NCBI GenBank assembly: GCA_023078555.1
Contig: CM041196.1
Location: 3,596,001 to 3,660,000, forward strand
Source of the DNA: Ulva prolifera
Taxonomy: Eukaryota > Chlorophyta > Ulvophyceae > Ulvales > Ulvaceae
Length of the DNA: 64,000 nt
Direction: 5' to 3'
The notes below the pieces were generated by a model. The model saw only the letters and a list, made by a program, of their open reading frames with translations. It did not search any database and had not been told where the DNA came from. Shown here piece by piece: positions 51,009 through 64,000 of the stretch; the first letter of the stretch is position 1; each line of letters opens with the position of its first letter. Made by a program: the position numbers and the translations under genes.

Positions 51009-53995
51009 ATGGCGCACGTCGTGCAAGGCAGGCGTGGCAACCATCCGCGCGTCAAGCGCGTGCGGCGGCGGGAGGCGTACGGCTGCACCGCGTGGGGCTC
51101 CCTCCCCAGAGCTGACAGCAGCGTGCGGCGCCGCGAGTGGACCGCGTTGGTGCGGCTCCCGGTGGCGTCCGCACCCGAGCGACGTGAATGCGGCGCGGCC
51201 TCGCTGGCCAAGCGTGTGCGCACCGCACGGGCGTGGTCGCTGAACCCCGCTCGACGGCGGCCCGTGGCGCACGCGACGCCGACGCGTGTCGTCGTCGCCG
51301 GTGGCGACGGAGGGCCCGACGTGGTTGTCCGCCAATCGGAGTACGGCGTGGCGTGGTGCGAGGGCCTCCCCCCCGTCGACGGCGCCAGGCCTGCGAGCGG
51401 AGGCGGAGACGGCCAGTTGGTCGGCGGCGGCGGCGTCACGGCCGGCATGCGTGCGGCCGCGGCGATCGTGAGGTGCGTCCAGGGCGTGATGCGGCGTACG
51501 CTCGCGCCGCCGCTGGCGGGAGGGCGGCCTGCGTGCATGCGTGAGGTCGCGGCGTGGGGCGACGTTCTGCATTCAGCGTCTGGCGCTGTGCGTCGCGAGC
51601 GGGCGGCCGTCGAGTCGCGGCGGGCGGAGGCTGCTGCGGCGGCGTCGAGGGCGCGGGGTTCGGGAGGCGGCGATGGTGGCCGCCGTGGCTCCGGGGGGGC
51701 CGTCATCCTGCCATGGCATTGCGGCTGGAGTGCACGCGAGGAGGCGGTGGTGGTGGGCGCGGACGGGGCGGGAGGGGGCGGGGTGCAGGGCATGGAGAGG
51801 CTGCGCGGAGGAGGAGACGCGGGAGCGCCCCATGGCTGGCAGCGGGAGGTCTGTGAGGGGGACTCCAATGAGCCTGACGAGGGGCAGCCACGGACGCCGC
51901 CGGCGCACGCGGATCGCGCGAGCGAAGCCTTGACCGCAATGTCGAGCGAGGCCCTCCGGAGAGAGCTGCAGCGCAGGTCTGGCGCGGGTGGCGAAGGCGC
52001 CAGCGACACGCATGTCGGCGTGGCCGCTGCGGCGCCGGGAGGGCGCGGGGGGGCAGAGGTGGCGATGTCAGGGTGGCATTCCATGGGGGAGCCGTGGGTA
52101 CAGGGGACGCCGGCGTTCCAGATGGGGGGGGGCGGCTTCAGCGGCGTGCCGCGCGTGGTGGGCCAGCCTGCCCCAGTGCACGCGTACGGCTCCGTGAGCC
52201 ACGTGTATGGCGTCCCGCACGCCCCCGACGCCGCGGTCGGCGTGCCGCTCGACGGCCCGTGGGGGCACGGCGGTGGCATCCCGACGGCTGGCGCTGGCAG
52301 CGTGACAGGTGGGTGTCACCCTCCGCCCCCTGGTGTGAGCTTCTATCCGCCAGCATACCAGATCCCGGGGTTCGCCTACACGGCCCATCCGGCGATGTCG
52401 GGGGCCCCGTACGGTGGGTCGCCGCACCCACTCGTCCGCCACGCCGCGATGCCCGGACCTGCCCCGCCCACAGTTTCTGTTGGAACCCCGTTCCGGGAGG
52501 TGCACGCGGCGGCGCCACTCCCTGGACGAGGGGGCGCAGCCGCGACACGGGGCGACAGTGCGCGCCGTTGGGTACACCGGGCGGCCGATCCGCCCGCCAT
52601 CGAGTCCAGGGAGGCTTTTGTGGGCCACTTGTCGGAGGGCGGCTGTGCCGGGGAGGCGGGCGGGGTGGGGTCGCGGTCGGCGGGCGGCGCGCGCGACGGC
52701 GGCGGTGGCGCGCGGGGCCACCCGGCCGCAGAACCGGGGGCACCTGCGTCCACAGGGCCTGGCACGCCTGCGCAGCCCGCGGTTCACAGCCCGCGGCGTA
52801 CAGACGGTGGTGCACGCGGTGACGGCGACTCGGGCGACTGTGAGGTCTTGAGCGTGTCGAGCGGCACGCCCGACGGACACTGCGGAGGTGACGCGGCGGC
52901 GGACAGCGCCGGTGGCGTGCAGGGGCTCGCCTCCGCGGCGGCGGGCTGTCGCGCTGACGTTGCCGGCGGAGCCGTGCGCGACGCGGCACAAGGCGGCACA
53001 GCGCGGCGGCTGCCCCCCACCGGTGGCCAACGGGCCACGCTCGCGACACGCGGACTCACGGGACAGGAGCTCGGCAGCATCCTCGGCTGCAACATGCGGA
53101 TGTCCAGCAGCAAAGGGGCGTTCGTGCGCCGGAGGGATCCCGCGAAGCGGGCGGCGCTGAAAGCGGACTTGAAATTGCGCAAGGGGAAGCGCCGGCGGAG
53201 TGAGGAGGGCCCTTTGGGGACCGTGGCGGCGGCGGCGGCTGCTGCCGGGCTGGAAGCCGCGGCGTGCGCGGCGACAGAGCGGGAACCCGTGGCATCGCCG
53301 CGCGGCTGCGCGGCCGCGACGACTCCGGGAGGCACACGGCAGGCTGCCCGCGGGCAGAAGAGGCCGGCGATGGCGGCCGTGACGAGAGGGCACACCAAGG
53401 CGGCGCGTCTTCGTAGCCTCGAGAGCGGCGGGGCGGCGGAGGCCGCGGGCGACGCGGTCCGCCGTGGCTCTGGTTTGGCGGATGCGCCCATGACGCGTCC
53501 AGCCGTCGCCGCCGCGGTCCAGGCGGGCGCGCACGGCTGCGCCAAGAGCCGTGCCGTCGCCCTCTCCAGGTCTGTCCTGGCTGCGTCCGACGATGACGCG
53601 CCTCCAGAGGCGTCACGCGACCGGGTGCGCCGCGGCGGCTCGACGGTGGCCGCGGTCGACGTGTTCGCGTCGCTTCCAGAGGGCCCGGCCGCACGAGGAG
53701 GCGCTGTGGCCATCACAGGCCACGCTGCCAGCGGCGCACCTGGAGCGGCCATCACGGAGCGCCGTCGGGCGGCACCTGTGCCGGTGGGCGCCGCACGGCG
53801 GCCGTCTGCCGCAGCCGTGCCGGCGGGGGGAGGAGCGGCCGAAGAGGCGGAGGACGACACGACCGCGGCTGCAGCGTGGCACCGCGCGATTGGAGAGGAC
53901 GACCGCGGCAGCGAGCCGGGCTGCGAGGACGGCGACATCTCGCCCGACATGCGTTCTCTGCTCGCTCTGCTGAAGACCCCGGCGACCTTCACGCA
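51009..53995 (+). CDS. Giant gene, exon a: low-complexity N-terminus
   Basis: About 1000 codons ending ACGCA|GTGCGT (phase 2). The sequence is Gly/Ala/Arg/Pro rich with basic patches (HPRVKRVRRRE near the start, DLKLRKGKRRRSEE near 53165-53205, likely nuclear localisation signals) and a Tyr/Pro-rich patch (FYPPAYQIPGFAY near 52340). GQELGSILGCNMRMSSSKG looks ordered. Long frames arise easily in such GC-rich DNA, so only the 3' part, tied in by splice phase, is well supported. Confidence 0.5.

Positions 53996-64000: not shown

Follow-up and report, generated by a model that had tools for sequence, protein, structure and literature searches.

A repeated gene family in Ulva prolifera predicted to join a tyrosine recombinase homologue, SBP-like zinc modules and a helicase in one protein

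Described systems and the Ulva locus

Helitrons encode a single protein that combines a tyrosine-using DNA nuclease of the HUH type with a PIF1-type helicase. DIRS elements are tyrosine recombinase retrotransposons, of which DIRS-1 forms clusters, and Starships are large eukaryotic elements, found in fungi, that carry a tyrosine recombinase captain (DUF3435) as a separate gene. Here we analyse a stretch of 64,000 nucleotides of the green alga Ulva prolifera (C1:3596001-3660000; "the window"), together with the 88.9 Mb genome in 44 contigs, labelled C1, C2 and so on. The window contains members of a 17-kb gene family that is repeated in the genome, and whose one predicted protein unites a tyrosine recombinase homologue, SBP-like zinc modules and a DNA helicase. 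We interpret the locus as one copy of an autonomous family of DNA mobile elements, in which a single giant gene of 16 exons encodes the fused machine, and we put the probability of this interpretation at roughly 0.6.

The likeness to Helitrons is the fusion of a DNA-cutting tyrosine enzyme to a helicase in one protein, here by predicted gene. The enzyme itself differs: the genome has eight matches to PF14214 (Helitron_like_N) at E ≤ 0.01, all of them outside the recombinase clusters. No match to DUF3435, or to the Crypton-type Pfam domains GCR1_C and DUF3504, was found in the recombinase part at E up to 10, and no reverse transcriptase or RNase H of the DIRS kind was found in the parts of the gene or in queries with 38 of the 318 open reading frames (ORFs) of at least 100 amino acids in the window. 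AcademH and KolobokH are, to our knowledge, not tyrosine recombinase elements. In the part of the source available to us, they are DNA transposons that carry helicase domains (PMC10799480). Cryptons are DNA elements of eukaryotes that a tyrosine recombinase mobilises, and in this they resemble the proposed element (PMC3212892). According to the accessible part of that paper, a C48 peptidase or a GCR1_C DNA-binding domain is found in some Cryptons, no SBP module appears among the domains mentioned, and the catalytic tetrad is R-H-R-Y; the word "helicase" occurs nowhere in the paper (PMC3212892). In the Ulva copies seen, the His is Arg, Lys or Ser and the tetrad is incomplete. Polinton-like viruses, which are integrated in protist genomes, include some with both a tyrosine recombinase and a superfamily 1 (SF1) helicase, according to the accessible parts of two sources (PMC4642659, PMC12721341); there, these are separate genes accompanied by capsid and packaging genes, none of which were found here. 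With the SBP-box (SPL) factors, the modules of exons 9 and 10 share the zinc fold and the Cys/His spacing, whereas here they are tandem modules inside a recombinase-helicase protein. The proposed element would work like the tyrosine-recombinase elements and, in its helicase fusion, like Helitrons.

Architecture and conservation of the gene

The plus-strand gene has 16 exons, listed in Table 1. Exons 1-12 lie between 51,009 and 64,000, and exons 13-16 in the next 10 kb of C1 past the window end (L062), with a stop at about 67,740; the exons in L062 are given in extended window numbering. Exons 2-16 comprise 2,964 codons without a stop, and the protein would reach nearly 4,000 residues if exon 1 is added. 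Alignment to the strongly diverged C4 copy gives 14 collinear conserved blocks, one for each of exons 1-14, and since these include exons 13 and 14, homology extends past the window end. An earlier note on this DNA had read 12 exons of a single gene between 51,009 and 64,000, with matching phases, and had ascribed a helicase to that gene by paralogy with sequence at 28.9-35.9 kb. The exon count is the same in our analysis, the paralogue, on the minus strand, is indeed made up of zinc and helicase exons (exons 10-16), and on extending the contig exons 13-16 were found in frame, encoding an SF1 helicase with RecD/PIF1-like motifs. The helicase assignment has thus become direct, because the plus-strand copy itself runs into the helicase.

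Donor sites of the window copy resemble GTGCG, GTACG or GTGTG, and 12 of 14 acceptors end in TGCAG. The junction between exons 1 and 2 is less regular: the donor at about 53,996 (GTGCG, with a like site in C4, read by eye) looks phase 2, and the solution for the acceptor near 54,464 is phase 0.

Diverged copies on the C1 minus strand, C4, C5, C2 and C6 keep the exon order, with protein identities by exon of approximately 25-66%, and lower for exon 10 of C2. From the recombinase onward this order could be read to exon 14 in C4, exon 16 in C5, exon 12 in C2 and exon 10 in C6; in C4 the helicase breaks off within exon 14 (residues 1-95 of 229). With window queries, exon 7 was detected in C4 only, exon 9 was not detected in C2, and exons 11, 13 and 15 were not detected in C5. 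Introns 2-15 have the same phase as the window copy in all 31 comparisons with diverged copies, made with four copies per intron for introns 2-5 and one or two for introns 6-15, using GT-AG candidates only and a score that rewards likeness to the window copy, with a few low-scoring solutions such as intron 2 in C5. Ratios of nonsynonymous to synonymous change (omega) range over 0.07-0.26 in exons 3-5 and 0.27-0.45 in exon 10; exon 14 has 0.36, exon 15 has 0.51, exon 16 has 0.60 and exon 12 has 0.63. These values are rough, as several synonymous distances (dS) are near or above 1, and two exon 10 partners (L042, L043) contain a stop. They show that the protein is kept by selection in the tested exons, more weakly in the last ones. 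The reading of a single gene across both the recombinase/zinc and the zinc/helicase joins is well supported by the reading frame and by equal splice phases in diverged copies.

The recombinase core lies in exons 3-5. Invariant in five diverged copies are GxRNP (box I, exon 3) with a Trp nine residues past the Arg, DK[AS]PN with the candidate hairpin Lys (DKAPN in exon 4 of the window copy), the box II Arg (ARDMR, exon 5), and GQW followed by a Tyr at +11 (W480 and Y491). The earlier note had pointed to boxes I and II, the hairpin Lys and the Tyr 11 residues after GQW. Further copies keep the Lys, the box II Arg, the Trp and the Tyr wherever the exon is held; one C4 copy (L033) deviates, with GVRDP and CQW. 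Profile-profile comparisons were made using hhalign against a reference set of 12 recombinases (XerC, XerD, FimB, FimE and eight phage integrases). When exons 3-5 are aligned locally, the top-scoring match falls on box I: its score of 32.5 (P 9e-4) compares with at most 20.0 among 200 column shuffles. Exon 5 by itself is placed on box II, scoring 18.7 (P 0.034; shuffle maximum 19.5, one of 200 shuffles as high). In both alignments the Arg residues are in register and boxes I and II come in the right order, so that the core of the superfamily, an ordered and homologous pair of box I and box II Arg, is recovered. With one integrase row of this reference set still mis-framed, the profiles for helicase, PIF1 and zinc reached 12.8-13.9. 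The profile comparison and the conserved residues together support the identification of exons 3-5 as a tyrosine recombinase homologue.

The zinc modules are SBP-box-like, in exon 9 by profile and in exon 10 by predicted fold, a likeness that the earlier note had overlooked. The SBP profile PF03110 matches exon 9 in three of four copies; the best E, 1.4e-4, is that of the window copy, which scores 22.5 bits, below the cut-off of 27, and two other C1 copies score above it. In exon 10, the best PDB fold matches of the second module are SPL domains; the predicted model has a mean confidence (pLDDT, predicted local distance difference test) of 49.2 overall and 55-78 across residues 91-170. Both a profile match and a predicted two-zinc fold are thus present. 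Judged against what we take to be the SBP spacing, the fourth ligand of the second zinc is changed in part. A search with the zinc alignment against 5.8 billion proteins scored 7,991 candidates and gave none at E ≤ 0.01. Two clear SBP-box genes occur elsewhere in the genome, at C9:2101816 (62.5 bits) and C4:1947725 (60 bits), and point to a member of the green lineage. SBP-box factors are described as plant-specific in the accessible parts of the literature.

Exons 13-16 are supported as encoding an SF1 helicase by a full set of motifs I-VI. The Walker A motif GPPGSGKS, the Walker B Glu, DPxQS, HxQxR and a VALTRV-like motif VI are kept in the window copy, the minus-strand paralogue and C5, except that Walker A is changed in C5; the motif names follow what we take to be the SF1 scheme. 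AAA_19 was matched in three of three helicase copies (best 2.3e-4) and AAA_30 in two of three, with scores for the first copy below the curated cut-offs. The earlier note had called the helicase PIF1-like. Its assignment as a helicase stands, and the PIF1/RecD-like label follows from the motifs; membership of the PIF1 clade is suggested only by these, as PF05970 (PIF1) has no match to the helicases of this gene's copies, and hhalign gives nearly the same score for PIF1 proteins (31.1) as for UvrD (30.7), chiefly over the Walker A region. The helicase has no match in the PDB by sequence. Among 5.8 billion proteins, 7,996 candidates were scored and one relative was found (P0002, a JGI protein of 428 amino acids, 39% identical), from which it follows that the helicase family exists elsewhere. 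P0002 is a metagenomic protein on a short contig.

Copies, arrays and neighbouring features

Recombinase-exon matches number at least 89 and at least 163 in two genome searches (these count exons, not copies). They form clusters at C1 3.54-3.78 Mb, C2 1.85-2.09 Mb, C4 1.06-1.11 and 6.86 Mb, C5 3.31-3.47 Mb, and C6 1.80-1.85 and 7.61-7.78 Mb, and occur also on many small contigs. Zinc and helicase exons are found in addition at C3 2.70-2.71 Mb. Helicase exon 14 has 39 matches, in those clusters, at C3 2.71 Mb and as isolated broken or partial fragments in three places, at C1 12.1, C3 4.4 (C3:4402690-4407201) and C6 5.87 Mb. The isolated fragments C1:12115383 and C6:5866833 start at the same element base (L062:1426). 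Spacing is regular in places: units repeat every 17.95 kb on C2 and on C15, every 23.4 kb on C5 and every 19.2 kb in the window. Many of the small contigs C13-C43 carry C2-type units, which makes it probable that the assembly falls short of the full C2 array.

A second family (L003, L004, L006) has a helicase region that is 99% identical at C1:2764617, C2:10840439 and C10:1200761. At C1 2.76 and C10 1.20 Mb, a weak SBP match (21.6 bits) lies 5,109 bases upstream of its PIF1-matching helicase. Its helicase aligns with that of the present gene over 190 columns, with a score of 30.7 (maximum of 60 shuffles 23.4) and an HH probability of 9.9%. Other PIF1 helicase ORFs are L001 and L002 (C1:9.22 Mb) and L005 (C7:397 kb), the last of which follows a Helitron Rep match at C7:394973.

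No recombinase exon was found beside the minus-strand paralogue in the recombinase-exon search of the genome; a sister of this paralogue near C1:3.69 Mb has recombinase matches upstream. The window contains a tandem duplication of 19.2 kb, in which positions 1-18370 and 19198-37543 are 99.3% identical, and the second minus-strand copy has its helicase exon 14 (about 11347-12045) interrupted by a TAG. Positions 3964-9847 of the window recur at 66592-72474 of the extended contig. A minus-strand open frame of 511 amino acids (27333-28865) separates the convergent helicase ends; it has no Pfam match and is also copied in the extended contig. A 166-bp satellite occupies 37284-40388 in 18.7 copies; it was matched only in the C1 cluster and in the C6 clusters (68-71% identity there), and some of it lies 2-3 kb from helicase exon 14. 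A 287-bp repeat at 62019-62305 lies in different introns in different gene copies. It was considered as an element end and dropped, having at least 40 places (of 111 candidates) over many contigs.

Table 1. Exons of the plus-strand gene and of its minus-strand paralogues, in window positions; entries marked L062 are in extended window numbering.
Feature	Position	Strand	Evidence
Exon 1, N-terminal part	51009..53995	+	ORF, ca. 996 codons, largely low-complexity; 51147-51512 conserved, 49% match with the C4 copy
Exon 2, ahead of recombinase core	54465..55055 (start approximate)	+	Conserved in C4, C5, C2, C6; donor phase 0
Exon 3, recombinase box I (GVRNPSVSAWQW)	55215..55523	+	hhalign with tyrosine recombinases, 0/200 shuffles as high; R269 invariant
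Exon 4, hairpin lysine candidate (DKAPN)	56061..56383	+	K313 invariant in 5 diverged copies; DK[AS]PN in further copies
Exon 5, box II (ARDMR), GQW, catalytic Tyr candidate	56500..56788	+	hhalign box II, 1/200 shuffles as high; R451, W480, Y491 invariant
Exon 6, conserved, after recombinase core	56982..57327	+	Diverged-copy comparison, intron phase
Exon 7	57481..57911	+	Detected in C4; not in C5, C2, C6
Exon 8	58252..58465	+	Diverged-copy comparison, intron phase
Exon 9, SBP-like zinc module	58757..59274	+	PF03110 profile match
Exon 10, five tandem Cys/His modules	60106..61951	+	Cys/His invariant in 5 copies; second module (residues ~92-166) with SBP-like predicted fold
Exon 11	62856..63149	+	Diverged-copy comparison, intron phase
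Exon 12	63322..64000, on to 64181 in L062	+	Diverged-copy comparison
Exon 13	64415-65266 (L062)	+	Diverged-copy comparison
Exon 14, helicase motifs I-IV	65502-66187 (L062)	+	Motif alignment
Exon 15	66282-66728 (L062)	+	Diverged-copy comparison
Exon 16, helicase motifs V-VI	66855-67740 (L062)	+	Motif alignment
Minus-strand paralogue, exon 10 (zinc modules)	33889..35752 (upper end = first conserved codon)	-	41-45% amino acid identity in two stretches
Minus-strand paralogue, exon 13	31436..32338	-	Sequence comparison
Minus-strand paralogue, exon 14, motifs I-IV	30520..31211	-	Motif alignment
Minus-strand paralogue, exon 15	29975..30427	-	Sequence comparison
Minus-strand paralogue, exon 16, motifs V-VI	29010..29876 (lower end approximate)	-	Motif alignment
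Second copy of minus-strand zinc exon 10, in 19.2-kb tandem duplicate	14739..16601	-	Duplication comparison

Alternative readings and implications

Several results weigh against the interpretation as a mobile element with a tyrosine recombinase, and they concern either the enzyme or its mobility. Regarding the enzyme, the motif spacing could be coincidental and exons 3-5 no tyrosine recombinase at all. In all copies seen, Arg, Lys or Ser stands in place of the box II His, and the HH-suite probabilities of the recombinase alignments are low, at 22.5% for box I and 1.5% for box II. PF00589 has no match anywhere in the genome, although all 14 control genomes give matches to this profile; at E up to 10, Pfam yielded no recombinase family for this part, only three unrelated weak rows, and PHROGs gave one row without known function. 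A search of the PDB by sequence returned four lipoxygenase rows only (E about 0.95), and by profile none. With the 834 amino acids of exons 2-8, 7,992 candidates among 5.8 billion proteins were scored and none reached E ≤ 0.01. The AlphaFold model, made from the recombinase locus with introns read through, has a pLDDT of 42.9 and meaningless PDB fold matches; integrases are absent among the PDB chains listed for it, which does not exclude the fold. The earlier note's tyrosine recombinase is upheld by the profile-profile alignment and the conserved R, K, R, W and Y, and goes undetected by Pfam, by PDB sequence search and by AlphaFold. However, the box I alignment far exceeds its shuffles, box II was equalled by a single shuffle, the two are in register and ordered, the five residues are invariant, and helicase, PIF1 and zinc profiles score lower against the same set (with the one row mis-framed); we regard coincidence as rather improbable. 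A comparably low probability attaches to two adjacent genes, one for the recombinase and one for the zinc modules and helicase, that travel together and give separate messages. The exon 9 frame passes its donor to a stop at 59,323-59,325, an ATG lies upstream in the window copy's exon 10 frame, and a mosaic C1 copy (3,557-3,566 kb) matches the window copy at 73-80% in the recombinase exons, 91% in the exon 9 stretch and 96% over the next 4 kb, all as two genes might. Set against this, the phase of intron 9 is equal in the window copy, C4 and C6; C4 has a stop just upstream of exon 10 and no Met ahead of the conserved part; and introns 10-13, which lead from the zinc modules to the helicase, are in phase in the window copy and the minus-strand paralogue, with 10, 11 and 13 in phase also in C4.

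The main rival concerns mobility. The locus may belong to a host multigene family, perhaps a former transposon, that is held in tandem arrays by unequal exchange and serves a chromosomal role, for example in centromere-like or heterochromatic arrays, while being immobile. Purifying selection, the regular spacing and the confinement of the 166-bp satellite to the C1 and C6 clusters would all fit such a family. Nearly all copies among the matches listed sit in clusters, several of them regular arrays of a kind that unequal exchange alone can produce, few matches listed lie outside, and the near-identical siblings of the window copy are all in one 250-kb cluster. What speaks against a host family is that clusters occur on some large contigs only, with two each on C4 and C6, that many copies are truncated or broken, that isolated fragments lie on C1, C3 and C6, and that a related family, analysed in its SBP match and its helicase, is dispersed at 99% identity on three contigs. 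We consider a host family unlikely, and the idea of centromeres was dropped because the clusters are not one per large contig. Far less probable still is that the locus is what remains of a DNA virus or virus-like element once integrated here. Polinton-like viruses of protist genomes do have tyrosine recombinases and helicases, each with its own gene, and a PIF1-like SF1 helicase is present in Tlr1, according to the accessible parts of the sources (PMC4642659, PMC12721341), but the introns here are conserved, IMG/VR holds no relative of the recombinase, zinc or helicase alignments or of the metagenomic relative, the zinc ORF has no phage match, and no capsid-type Pfam match was found in the 38 window ORF queries.

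We therefore return to the autonomous mobile element. No element ends, target-site duplications or empty sites have been established, the isolated fragments being defined by coordinates only, and for this reason mobility is something that we infer; it is likely, but unproven. The earlier note's suggestion of a new class of mobile element is in this sense plausible, given many copies on several contigs, arrays, isolated fragments and the dispersed second family. In such an element, the recombinase core (exons 3-5) would cut and rejoin DNA through a 3'-phosphotyrosine link, the tandem SBP-type zinc modules (exons 9-10) would recognise the element's own DNA, and the C-terminal SF1 helicase (exons 13-16) would open or unwind DNA, probably at the recombining ends or for copying a circular intermediate. 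The Helitron helicase is thought to unwind or copy DNA beside a different tyrosine nuclease. Arrays may arise by integration of circles into resident copies and by unequal exchange.

We suggest tentatively, and as possible rather than probable, that these elements form a new class of eukaryotic DNA transposon, with recombinase, SBP zinc modules and helicase in one protein, and that the plant SBP-box domain is descended from, or shares its origin with, their zinc modules. In the open-access literature, so far as its texts were available and with preprints and most subscription journals outside this scope, we recognised no report of a recombinase-helicase protein or of an SBP element. The mosaic C1 copy provides at least one case of reassortment between the halves of a giant gene. 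If the element is mobile, it would add a recombinase-helicase machine to the eukaryotic transposons, as a tyrosine-recombinase counterpart of the Helitron protein. Other plant regulators derive from transposases, and a mobile element of this kind would provide a testable source for the plant SBP-box domain.

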